Shown: one piece after another, positions 11,296-13,795 of the stretch
Layout: the number at the start of each line of letters is the position of its first letter
How positions within the stretch are numbered: position 1 is the first letter of the stretch
Assembly: GCA_913775095.1 (NCBI GenBank)
Contig: CAJYIW010000026.1
Coordinates: 186,001 to 250,000 of the forward strand
Reading direction: 5' to 3'
Origin: an uncultured Siphonobacter sp.
GTDB taxonomy: Bacteria; Bacteroidota; Bacteroidia; Cytophagales; Spirosomataceae
DNA length: 64,000 bases
Program-made: the position numbers and the translations under genes
The notes under the pieces: generated by a model
The model's input: only the letters and a program-made list of their open reading frames with translations
Told to the model about the DNA's origin: nothing
The model's database searches: none

Positions 11296-11544
11296 ATGCA
11301 AACTTTGATGATTGAAGTTCGTAATGATAAAGCAATGGCTTTGCTACGCGATTTGGAGAATTTAGATCTAATAAAAGTTATTGAAGGAGATCATGTAAAG
11401 GTCAATCAGGAAAATAAAGCAGATCATGAGGTTTCTGAATTAAAGCTTTCCCAAAAGCTAAGGGGTAGTATCACTTTAGTAGAAGGTGAACAATTGCAGC
11501 GGGACATTCAGGAAGGAAGAGAAGAATGGAACCGAAATTCTTAA
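11296..11544 (+). CDS. Putative antitoxin of a PIN-domain toxin-antitoxin pair
   Basis: The protein has 82 residues and is charged and hydrophilic. The N-terminus MQTLMIEVRNDKAMALLRDL resembles small Bacteroidota antitoxins that precede PIN-domain toxins. The C-terminal half (EGREEWN) would be the toxin-binding part. The gene overlaps the toxin start by 19 nt, the usual translational coupling of such pairs. The DNA-binding fold is not certain from sequence alone. The identification rests mainly on context. The region is AT-richer than its flanks, consistent with horizontal acquisition. Confidence 0.7.
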   Translation: MQTLMIEVRNDKAMALLRDLENLDLIKVIEGDHVKVNQENKADHEVSELKLSQKLRGSITLVEGEQLQRDIQEGREEWNRNS

Positions 11545-11924
11545 TAGATACAAATGTTATTATCGATTACTTAGCTGGAAAACTTCCAGCTGAGGGCTTA
11601 GATTTTATAGATAAAGTAATTGAAGGTATTCCTGTAATTTCGATAATTAATAAAGTTGAATTGCTGGGTCATAATCATCCCAGTCTTCATCAATGTAAAT
11701 TGTTCGTGGGCGTTTGCCACATTTTAGAGTTAACAGAACAGGTAGTCGATATAACCATTACCATTCGTAAATCAAGAAAAATAAAAATTCCTGATGCTAT
11801 TGTAGCGGCCACAGCCCTTGTTTATGATTTAATAGTAATTACGCACAATGTGTCAGATTTTGAAGGGATAGCTAAGCTTTCTATAATAGATCCTTATCAG
11901 TTAAAAGATATTGACAGGATTTAA
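11526..11924 (+). CDS. PIN-domain ribonuclease toxin (VapC-like)
   Basis: The protein has 132 residues. The PIN acidic residues are in order: Asp in FLIDTNVIIDYL near residue 8, Glu in INKVELLG, Asp in KIPDAIVAATAL, and the final THNVSDF block. These proteins are Mg-dependent endoribonucleases, and VapC relatives often cut tRNA or rRNA. The gene overlaps the preceding small gene by 19 nt, and the two form a toxin-antitoxin module. There is no visible terminator before the convergent rtcB end 49 nt away. The target RNA is unknown. Confidence 0.88.
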   Translation: MEPKFLIDTNVIIDYLAGKLPAEGLDFIDKVIEGIPVISIINKVELLGHNHPSLHQCKLFVGVCHILELTEQVVDITITIRKSRKIKIPDAIVAATALVYDLIVITHNVSDFEGIAKLSIIDPYQLKDIDRI

Positions 11925-11973: not shown

Positions 11974-13494
11974 TTAATCCTCCGCTTTTTCCCGGCCATC
12001 CGCCATGCGGACGATTTTAGGGGAAAACTTCGCCAGTACACTTACCAGATCGGTCTGAGCAACCATGACGTGTTCCAGATTTTTGTAAGCCATGGGAGCT
12101 TCATCCAGATCGGCTCCAATGAGCGTAACGCCTGCCTCTTCCAAAGCTTTCTTGACGTCAGACTTTTGAATCGTCTGGATGGCTTTGGTTCTTGACATGA
12201 GTCGCCCTGCTCCGTGTGATGCTGATTGCAGCGAAGCGTCTAATCCTTTGCCACGAACAACGTAACCGGGCTGGGTCATCGAACCGGGAATGATTCCCAA
12301 ATCTTTTTCACCCGCAGGCGTAGCTCCTTTGCGATGGACAATCACTTCCCGACCATCGGCCAGCGTTTCTTTCCAGGCAAAATTGTGGTGATTTTCCACC
12401 ATTACCAAAGGTGACTGATTCAAAGCCCGAGCCATTTTATTATGGATTTCGTGGTGATTAGCCGAAGCATAATCGCCCGCCAGATTCATGGCAATCCAGT
12501 ATTCCTGCCCTTCTTCGGAGTCTAAATCCAGCCAGGCCAGGTGCTGGGCTTCTTTCGGAAGCTTGGTCTTCTGCATGGCCAGTTTGGAGTAATGATTGGC
12601 GATGTTGCCACCAAAACCCCGTGAGCCTGAGTGAGAAAGTAACGCCAGGTATTTTCCAGCGGGAACTAACTCGTCGGAAAGTACTTCCAGCTCACCCCAT
12701 TCCACAAAGTGGTTTCCTGTACCAGAAGTACCTAACTGACGATAGGCCTTATCTCTTAACTCCCGAATAGGCTTGGTCGCCGACCATTCAGGCTTTTCAA
12801 AAAGCGTATCATCAAACTTCTTGCGTGATTCGCTGCCCATGCCAAAGTGCGTATGCTCGTTTAAAAGCGATTTCAGCAAATGGGTTTCGTTCTGAATCAT
12901 GGAGGCGGGTAAGTCGAACACACTCAGACACATCCGGCAGGCAATATCCACACCCACGGCGTAAGGAATCACGGTATTGGCCGTCGTAGCCAGCACGCCG
13001 CCGATGGGCAGGCCATACCCCTGGTGGGCATCGGGCATTAAAGCTCCGGCTTCTGCAATGGGTAACTGCATGGCCGTTTTCATTTGCCGGATTGCTCCTT
13101 CTTCGATATACTCCGCTCCGTACACCTGGTAGGGCAGAGGTTCTTCCCGCAGGATAAACTCACGCGTGGACTGACCAGGGCGGACGGGTAACTCATACAC
13201 GGGCGTGCGAGCGGCTTCTACCGCCAGAATTTCCCGGCCATAATCCGTCAGCGTTACGGGTATCCCGGCGTCTGCCATCTTTTTAACGGCCAGACCGAGG
13301 TTGGTTAATTTATTTTTAGAATACGCAAACTTCTTTGGATTATCGAGTAACTGGGCAAAAAGGGTTATGACTTTATCTTTAGGATAAACGCCATTGGAAA
13401 TCAGACCATTCGATACCCGCAGAAACTGTTTCTGTAATTCGGGAGATTCAATGCCCAGGGCCAGTAACTCGTCCTGAGTAATAAGGGTTTCCAT
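11974..13494 (-). CDS. rtcB: RtcB-family RNA-splicing ligase
   Basis: The protein has 506 residues from the ATG at 13494; a 14-codon upstream extension is open but would begin inside the terminator of the leader. RtcB motifs are seen in order: MPDAHQGYGLPIGGV, the metal-binding VGVDIACRMC, TSGTGNHFVEW, SHSGSRGFG, HHEI and VIVHRKGATPA, with GAGRLMSR containing the His of the guanylation site. RtcB joins 2',3'-cyclic phosphate (or 3'-phosphate) and 5'-OH RNA ends using GTP and Mn. The GVDIACRM segment differs from the GFDINCGV form of E. coli-type RtcB, so this may be a separate subgroup. No rtcA or rtcR is nearby. A structured leader with an intrinsic terminator precedes it, which suggests transcriptional attenuation. 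Confidence 0.93.
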   Translation of the reverse strand: METLITQDELLALGIESPELQKQFLRVSNGLISNGVYPKDKVITLFAQLLDNPKKFAYSKNKLTNLGLAVKKMADAGIPVTLTDYGREILAVEAARTPVYELPVRPGQSTREFILREEPLPYQVYGAEYIEEGAIRQMKTAMQLPIAEAGALMPDAHQGYGLPIGGVLATTANTVIPYAVGVDIACRMCLSVFDLPASMIQNETHLLKSLLNEHTHFGMGSESRKKFDDTLFEKPEWSATKPIRELRDKAYRQLGTSGTGNHFVEWGELEVLSDELVPAGKYLALLSHSGSRGFGGNIANHYSKLAMQKTKLPKEAQHLAWLDLDSEEGQEYWIAMNLAGDYASANHHEIHNKMARALNQSPLVMVENHHNFAWKETLADGREVIVHRKGATPAGEKDLGIIPGSMTQPGYVVRGKGLDASLQSASHGAGRLMSRTKAIQTIQKSDVKKALEEAGVTLIGADLDEAPMAYKNLEHVMVAQTDLVSVLAKFSPKIVRMADGREKAED

Positions 13495-13518
13495 ATGAAT
13501 TTGAGTTGGACATACAAC

Positions 13519-13549
13519 AAAAAAAGCCCGGAACACGCGGTTCCGGGCT
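13519..13549 (-). terminator. Intrinsic terminator in the rtcB leader
   Basis: Read on the minus strand, AGCCCGGAAC (13549-13540), a 5-nt loop and GTTCCGGGCT (13534-13525) form a perfect 10-bp GC-rich stem followed by a run of T. It ends only 25 nt before the rtcB start codon, so it either ends an independent small RNA or controls read-through into rtcB. Confidence 0.85.
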
Positions 13550-13695
13550 ATATAGGGATACTTAGGCCTAAGTCATCCTTGAGTGCTATCTCATTCGCCC
13601 GGAACCATCACGATCCTTCCGTCCAAAATCCGATGCCGGATTTTGACGTAAGCTCATCTCTTGACGGTATGCTGGGGCGAAGTTTTGCATTGCGG
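13519..13695 (-). promoter_or_regulatory. Candidate structured switch/attenuator leader of rtcB
   Basis: On the minus strand the RNA can fold into a long rod. P1 is TTCGCCC/GGGCGAA (13681-13675 with 13600-13594). P2 is ACCGTC/GATGGT (13668-13663 with 13609-13604, one G-U). P3 is a 12-bp hairpin with a GCAT loop and one bulged G (13648-13637 with 13632-13620). Large internal loops separate them (6/3 and 14/10 nt). A small hairpin around ACTTAGGCCTAAGT and then the terminator follow. The P1-side segment GGTTCCGGGC (13606-13597) is the exact complement of the terminator 5' arm GCCCGGAACC (13548-13539), so P1 plus terminator and an alternative antiterminator are mutually exclusive. I do not recognise a known riboswitch class. 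An independent small RNA (for example a 6S-like rod) is the main alternative. Confidence 0.6.
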
Positions 13696-13698
13696 GTG

Positions 13699-13728
13699 CA
13701 AAGATTATATTTTTTATTCAATTCCAAA
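13699..13728 (-). promoter_or_regulatory. Promoter of the rtcB leader RNA
   Basis: On the minus strand TTTG (13728-13725) is followed after 18 nt by AATCTTTG (13706-13699), a 7 of 8 match to TAnnTTTG. The same stretch also contains TATAAT. The predicted start is near 13695. Confidence 0.45.
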
Positions 13729-13795
13729 TTGCTACTTCTCTGATTTTTATGAGTTAATGAAATGTTAACAACTCTCGGGGTTCCCGCACAAATGC

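Follow-up and report, generated by a model that had tools for sequence, protein, structure and literature searches.

A probable ribosome-mediated attenuator in the leader of a Siphonobacter rtcB gene

RtcB-type enzymes mend broken tRNAs and ribosomes, and to our knowledge it is an open question how RNA repair is turned on in bacteria that manage without RtcR. The rtcB gene of an uncultured Siphonobacter sp. lies behind an intrinsic terminator on a 64,000-nucleotide stretch of contig CAJYIW010000026.1 (positions 186,001 to 250,000; hereafter the window). A sequence-only reading of this DNA had described a promoter, a rod-like fold, the terminator and a 10-nt complement of one terminator arm in front of the gene, all of which are present in the sequence. 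It had also noted that no rtcR or rtcA is nearby, and this holds for the 11 open reading frames (ORFs) of at least 200 aa between 3778 and 22132 (Pfam), the rest of the genome not having been searched. The promoter-like site and leader (13728-13494) lie on the minus strand, as does rtcB, and the leader measures 173 nt to the terminator end, U-run excluded. Its parts are as follows.

13728-13699, minus strand: promoter-like site TTTG-N18-xATCTTTG, with a -33 TTTG (13728-13725), an 18-nt spacer and a -7 box AATCTTTG (13706-13699); we take it to be of the Bacteroidota type
13690-13586, minus strand: leader ORF of 34 codons, ATG at 13690-13688 and TAG at 13588-13586; peptide MQNFAPAYRQEMSLRQNPASDFGRKDRDGSGRMR
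13681-13675, minus strand: strand 1, the P1 5' strand TTCGCCC, in ORF codons 4-6
13606-13597, minus strand: antiterminator strand GGTTCCGGGC, in ORF codons 29-32, beginning 21 nt before the last ORF base
13600-13594, minus strand: strand 2, the P1 3' strand GGGCGAA, overlapping the antiterminator strand; a compensatory change from C-G to U-A occurs in L007, the most diverged Siphonobacter locus
13578-13556, minus strand: hairpin GGATGACTTAGGCCTAAGTATCC between the stop codon and the terminator, seen in the fold
13549-13525 plus a U-run to 13519, minus strand: intrinsic terminator (strands 3 and 4), kept in 6/6 Siphonobacter genomes
13494-11974, minus strand: rtcB, 506 aa, ATG at 13494 (Pfam RtcB, E=4.9e-85)

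We propose that this leader is probably a ribosome-mediated attenuator of transcription, and that rtcB is induced when ribosomes stall on the leader ORF. RNA polymerase would start just past the -7 box, at about 13697-13690, and make a short mRNA with the 34-codon ORF, which spans the whole rod and was overlooked in the sequence-only reading. A ribosome reaching the TAG would cover the antiterminator strand, so that the terminator would form and rtcB would stay off. A ribosome that was stalled or slow up to about codon 24 would instead leave this strand free to pair with the terminator 5' arm, and polymerase would read through into rtcB. We infer three things here, namely that the ORF is translated, that stalling is the switch, and what the signal may be. 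The anatomy makes the translating ribosome the likely sensor, because the ORF runs through the rod and holds the antiterminator strand in its last codons.

The promoter-like site, ORF, terminator and complement are observed, as is their conservation. The region 13700-13494 folds better than all 200 dinucleotide shuffles (z = -3.97), and GGTTCCGGGC is the exact reverse complement, over 10 nt, of the terminator 5' arm at 13548-13539. For comparison we collected 81 intrinsic terminators from the window and 74 fetched loci, one of which is the rtcB leader site. None of the 80 others has a Watson-Crick run of at least 9 to its own 5' arm in the same range, which places the 10-nt complement beyond chance, and one of the 80 has a stronger duplex to its own 5' arm than the rtcB leader does. 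Across six Siphonobacter genomes the rod covaries, with 4 of the 26 P1-P3 pairs changing on both sides; the covariation score was reached by 4/500 shuffles and the number of both-side pairs by 16/500. The antiterminator helix is nearly invariant (98.3% of cells paired) and shows no covariation of its own within the genus, where it hardly varies. Thus the earlier proposal of a two-state, terminator-controlled leader, in which P1 plus terminator excludes the antiterminator, is upheld by covariation in P1-P3 and by retention of the GGTTCCGGGC/terminator pairing in Siphonobacter. The leader reads as the mutually exclusive layout of a 1:2 helix, a 2:3 antiterminator and a 3:4 terminator, more weakly so in L007.

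The leader stands directly before rtcB in all six Siphonobacter genomes, including L013, where an extra gene sits between the kinase and the leader. Named Siphonobacter records also contain a nearly identical copy. The distance from terminator stem to rtcB ranges from 29 to 97 nt in the five relatives. Leader RNA identity to the window is 98/95/87/87/74% in these relatives, compared to 56/62/43/45/36% at four-fold sites of rtcB (the last figure, for L007, is depressed, probably by an unaligned indel) and 83/71/42/42/24% in the spacer between terminator and ATG. Because leader identity exceeds both, the leader is under strong selection. Within the P1-P2 internal loop, no base of the 3' side (UCC) varies, and at most one does in the 5' side (CAGCAU). 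The promoter-like motif is the sole such site from -420 to +40 of the rtcB ATG in the window, and it is unique in 5/6 Siphonobacter genomes (scanned from -500 to +40 outside the window); in L007 the scan gave no full site, and the -7 half is visible alone. Since the same scan gave no promoter-like site between terminator and ATG in any of the six genomes, rtcB seems to need read-through.

The start, stop and length of the leader ORF are identical in 6/6 Siphonobacter genomes, and indels of 1-2 nt begin right past its stop codon. The duplex between the ORF tail and the terminator arm is stronger than expected from shuffled tails (p = 0.005 in the window and 0.003 in L005). We then folded the leader thermodynamically around an assumed ribosome footprint of about 14 nt on either side. 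With the P-site at codons 1-24, antiterminator pairing was 0.69-0.99 in five genomes, and at codons 26-34 it was at most 0.04. In L007, the antiterminator did not pair (0.00) unless a ribosome was placed on the ORF; pairing was then 0.52-0.78 for positions at codons 1-10 and weaker at codons 14-15.

We also looked for this arrangement in relatives. A covariance model of the six Siphonobacter leaders (R1), run on 200 genomes of the family, matched 25 at E<=0.1, namely the six Siphonobacter genomes at E<4e-32 and 19 others with best E of 2e-4 to 0.07. The latter were discarded, as pairing in 7 aligned of 8 taken was concentrated in the terminator. In Runella, a terminated leader lies immediately before rtcB in three genomes (G098, G116, G132). 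A second model (R2), started from BLAST with one Runella leader and built from seven (alignment A4) with no ORF criterion, found one strong copy in 10/13 Runella genomes; six Emticicia genomes and a single genome of another genus have weaker ones. It returned 23 loci (L220-L242), of which 17 were aligned (L220-L236: ten Runella, including the seven of the building set, and seven others); L237-L242 are outside the counts that follow, and L237 alone was examined later. All 17 carry an ORF of 29-31 codons, individually weak (shuffle p 0.025-0.085), that starts 18-28 nt past the -7 box and leaves 21-28 nt between its stop and the terminator. Of 17 leaders put through the antiterminator test, 15 have 22-28 nt from the start of the antiterminator strand to the ORF end, one unpaired base being counted. 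Over nine non-Siphonobacter leaders, four with p < 0.05 alone, the combined antiterminator test gave Fisher p = 4e-6, these leaders being not fully independent. A Fisher test over 15 leaders (L005 and L007 excluded as relatives of L002) gave p = 3e-11, which is too small because it counts related leaders and four tandem second leaders. In a Cyclobacteriaceae metagenome-assembled genome, the rtcB leader has a 24-codon ORF (L081, p 0.095). L065, which was put through the antiterminator test alone, has a 39-codon ORF, with the antiterminator strand 41 nt ahead of its end (p = 0.004), and a terminator 192 nt upstream of the rtcB match. When the promoter scan was applied to the interval from terminator to rtcB ATG, it gave two weak sites in Runella L225 and none in L224, L226 and L081.

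The Runella and Emticicia units also occur away from rtcB, at 1.7-2.8 kb upstream of it on the same strand in three further Runella genomes and at 2 to 12 kb upstream, again on the same strand, in six Emticicia genomes. At the fetched loci the next gene downstream is rtcB, a class-I tRNA-synthetase gene read as valS, a PcfJ-like gene or a further gene; at L235 the next listed ORF is another protein, 893 nt off. We had considered these units as one free-standing small RNA family and dropped the idea, as they contain short ORFs in an attenuator layout. Four of the loci (L229, L231, L234 and L230, about 1655-2010 in the RNA sense) have a tandem second ORF of 48-55 codons with its own terminator, before a PcfJ-like or other gene, and antiterminator complements with p 0.18, 0.04, 0.002 and 0.014, respectively. 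A conserved protein (NLPMIDLxPPIQKG...) follows leaders of the R2 class at L230 (1971-2630) and L236 (1744-2490), and the L230 protein has no Pfam match. In another Runella genome (G155, L214), a leader-terminator remnant was seen by eye beside a shortened rtcB-like stretch, and there leader and rtcB seem to decay together.

The Siphonobacter leader might itself be a free-standing, trans-acting small RNA, 6S-like or other, that always terminates and has rtcB as a mere read-through neighbor. The whole RNA is strongly conserved, terminator loop included; the analogous Runella unit is also found before tRNA-synthetase or PcfJ-like genes; and genome G035 retains the unit without an rtcB match. However, the leader keeps its place before rtcB in every Siphonobacter genome, it has the ORF and antiterminator layout, and no separate rtcB promoter was found. 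Searches for 6S RNA (RF00013) gave no match in its own genome at E<=10, with 4/14 control genomes above cut-off. 6S-Flavo (RF01685) likewise gave none there and none above cut-off in 148 genomes of the order, nor in the 14 controls, so that this model had no positive control. Overall, we regard a free-standing RNA as unlikely.

The attenuator reading gains from leaders elsewhere in the order. A refined model (R3), built regardless of ORFs and run on 390 genomes, matched 12, eight of them the known Runella and Emticicia and four new and outside the family; the new matches are weak (E 7e-4 to 0.0097 per genome) in a scan where chance matches are expected. Two of these (L243 and L246, from one genus, with the same leader in sister genomes) encode Tyr- or Tyr/Phe-rich peptides (MNFTHNTYYYYYQAP..., MNFKRNTYYYYYLAP...) before the Biopterin_H gene of a biopterin-dependent aromatic amino-acid hydroxylase, and a third (L244) encodes such a peptide (MLNTTATYFSFFYFYF...) before a DAHP-synthase gene, both enzymes being identified from their first 90 residues. 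Their antiterminators have p 0.001-0.003. The fourth, L245, lacks a short ORF and is probably a spurious match. L237, a weak R2 match, has a 17-codon ORF with six Tyr (MQIANNTYPNYYYYYGR) before an aminotransferase gene (antiterminator p 0.014). Finally, four Runella leaders before the valS-type gene (L220-L223) have nine Val in 29 codons, an enrichment with p = 1e-4 at an assumed 7% Val, and are likely to be valine attenuators. These adjoin a nuoH-like gene, identified by eye, on their other side, and in the 178 nt between the valS-leader terminator and the start codon there is a TATCTTTG element, where the scan found no full promoter. Because these amino-acid-rich peptides match the downstream genes, the layout in this order is most likely that of a leader-peptide attenuator. 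The Siphonobacter rtcB leader shares that layout with them and no detectable sequence.

The same helices could also work as a switch independent of translation, either a ligand riboswitch or a protein-bound attenuator. The rod covaries, the P1-P2 internal loop is near-invariant and the ORF shows no third-position signal, as such a switch would have it. Against this, no described riboswitch class (Rfam 15) exceeded its gathering score at the leader, and in a permissive scan the best matches there were terminator matches below cut-off. In addition, a terminating ribosome would mask the antiterminator strand at the conserved ORF end, and the same layout recurs in leaders with amino-acid-rich peptides. 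We therefore judge a translation-independent switch improbable. The suggestion in the sequence-only reading that the leader senses a ligand found no support, the ORF and the position of the antiterminator pointing to a translating ribosome, and its idea that RtcB cuts and ligates the leader has no evidence for or against it. Neither a known small RNA above cut-off nor an rtcB promoter after the terminator turned up in the Rfam and promoter scans. The likeness of GGAACCGCG to a T-box motif was weighed and set aside, with no Rfam match at the leader.

Several observations weigh against ribosome-mediated attenuation. Variable ORF columns are spread evenly over codon positions (14/15/15), so that the peptide is not visibly selected, and the Runella and Emticicia groups show no clear third-position excess either. 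Over the 34-codon stretch, one of the antisense frames, too, is free of stops in all six genomes, and shuffle p values for the ORF (24 loci: six Siphonobacter, L220-L236, which includes one locus, L236, that needed a fallback anchor, and L081) are 0.025-0.095, weak at each locus. R2 and R3 give the Siphonobacter leader no score, and class membership is a matter of layout. For an element that only ends transcription, the terminator hairpin with its loop shows an unusual degree of conservation. The L007 antiterminator contains an A-C mismatch (p = 0.082), and 97 nt separate the L007 terminator stem from rtcB. Antiterminators of the Tyr/Phe leaders begin 32-37 nt ahead of the ORF end, and that of L237 is located past the ORF. 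The "off" half of the footprint folding follows partly from masking the strand, and in 6/10 non-Siphonobacter leaders pairing comes partly back (0.24-0.39) once the ribosome sits on the last codon. Five genomes favor the antiterminator even when no ribosome is present (0.62-0.84), which is not the "off" of strict trp logic. For this reason, missing initiation may also turn rtcB on, which would suit a damage gauge and differs from that logic. Finally, the case consists of sequence and folding evidence.

Because codon positions vary equally, the coding claim rests on the fixed frame and on comparison with other leaders. Flat variation also suits a leader whose message is the movement of ribosomes along it better than it suits a small protein gene that has a terminator of its own and is co-transcribed into rtcB by leak. 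The latter could account for the fixed bounds of the 34-aa ORF and for DFGRxxx(D/N)GSGR, retained in 6/6 Siphonobacter peptides, but there is no silent excess (5 silent versus 9 replacement codons between the window and L005), and we consider it very unlikely. A different ORF, antisense at 13495-13743, was rejected, since indels in L004 and elsewhere break its frame. A bacterial Y RNA (YrlA) of the Ro/RtcB repair operon has a negligible chance of being the explanation: such RNAs, below the Rfam cut-off, do lie between the Ro (TROVE) gene and rtcB in five genomes of related genera, but there is no match at the leader, Ro is absent from 3/6 Siphonobacter and is on a different contig than rtcB in the other three (sub-cut-off YrlA-like match about 2 kb away), and sub-cut-off matches are unspecific, occurring in all six Siphonobacter and 11/14 controls.

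If the leader is an attenuator of rtcB, what would it sense? Its peptide has no run of one amino acid and thus lacks the hallmark of an amino-acid-specific attenuator. Up to codon 24, the residues invariant in six genomes are Ala7, Tyr8, Arg15, Gln16 and Asp21-Phe-Gly-Arg24. Arg is the commonest residue in the window peptide (6/34, no two side by side; binomial 0.006 with 5% assumed, uncorrected for the 20 amino acids), and the six peptides contain 6/6/6/5/5/3, L007 having three. Given these residues and the lack of a run, candidate signals are general translation trouble, from broken tRNAs or ribosomes, and a shortage of charged tRNA-Arg. A stall sensor on rtcB is plausible because RtcB-type ligases are tied to damaged translation RNAs. 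More tentatively, the leader could be a general gauge of translation damage, in which a stall would turn rtcB on, the RNAs would be mended and rtcB would go off again; we hold this to be possible, if somewhat doubtful.

Other elements precede rtcB in relatives. We read upstream regions from 75 of 83 non-Siphonobacter genomes with a match, plus a partly overlapping set of 77 loci. The terminator scan flags 6/75, with a laxer threshold in part of the scan, the three strong ones being Runella L144, L148 and L176, and 17/77, several of them weak. YrlA-like RNAs lie before rtcB at L122, L123, L125, L126 and L128 (40.6-45.7 bits versus a gathering score of 69), in five genomes that belong to Spirosomaceae genera g2/g57. 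A TROVE gene lies upstream there and, by eye, more than one RNA per locus. TROVE genes of three Siphonobacter genomes were seen at L162, L169 and L170-L172; the other three have no TROVE match. A palindrome, CTGCGCA-N4-8-TGCGCA, occurs before rtcB at 17/77 and 14/75 loci, often beside a regulator-like gene, perhaps of the WYL type.

77-locus set, palindrome: L016, L028, L042-L044, L046-L048, L051-L054, L056, L058, L059, L077, L085
75-genome set, palindrome: L124, L127, L129, L138, L147, L150, L178, L184, L185, L189, L206-L209

The Siphonobacter leader is of neither the YrlA-like nor the palindrome type. In another family, L008 (G050, 1501-1537) has a short 84% match to the leader 3' region, on the antisense side of an apparent promoter-to-terminator unit. 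In the window, the interval 11296-11924 holds a PIN-domain gene (VapC-like toxin), which is convergent with rtcB and preceded by a small partner.

If the proposal is true, a leader ORF responsive to the state of translation would couple damage directly to repair. Under the more tentative gauge reading, this would be a self-limiting repair loop in which RNA and ribosome stand in for a protein sensor like RtcR. Leader-peptide attenuators in Cytophagales are also likely before tRNA-synthetase and aromatic amino-acid genes, where the peptide compositions are sensible. The Tyr/Phe- and Val-rich leaders (L243, L246, L244; L220-L223; L237) have a promoter-like site, short ORF, antiterminator complement and terminator as the rtcB leader does; their peptides fit the downstream gene, whereas that of the rtcB leader shows no such fit. 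Attenuators of the trp/his type have a leader ORF, 1:2, 2:3 and 3:4 helices, and an intrinsic terminator before the gene. The rtcB leader has the ORF, three helices and terminator in common with them, but it has no single-amino-acid run and its ORF spans the whole 1:2 rod.

Related leaders have been described in the phylum: "strong clues" for trp/his-type leaders were noted in Flavobacterium psychrophilum (PMC9723704), and small ORFs in Bacteroides 5' UTRs (untranslated regions) were likened to them (PMC7366714). RtcR controls rtcBA and senses tRNA fragments in Salmonella (PMC7790460). It is a protein activator that binds these fragments (PMC7790460), while the rtcB leader would act as a cis RNA with the ribosome; what the two would have in common is the outcome, rtcB regulated by damage to the translation machinery. 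RtcB-type ligases have further ties to damaged translation RNAs: RtcB2-PrfH gives protection against an rRNA-cleaving colicin (PMC9223846), and survival under ribosome-targeting drugs is affected by Rtc (PMC12606134). Among the open-licence PMC papers listed by our searches, we found no report of rtcB under leader-peptide or attenuation control. The leader is most likely a known kind of switch, a ribosome-mediated attenuator, on a gene for which we found no such report. Among known systems, it is closest in logic to rli80-hflXr of Listeria, a ribosome-dependent attenuator that senses stalling and whose gene rescues translation (PMC6310831). That leader has a 14-codon ORF with an RLR arrest motif, and its induction by drugs is proven (PMC6310831); the rtcB leader, known here from sequence alone, has 34 codons, no RLR and an RNA-ligase gene downstream. 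In both, a short ORF lies over the anti-antiterminator, and antiterminator and terminator are mutually exclusive (PMC6310831).

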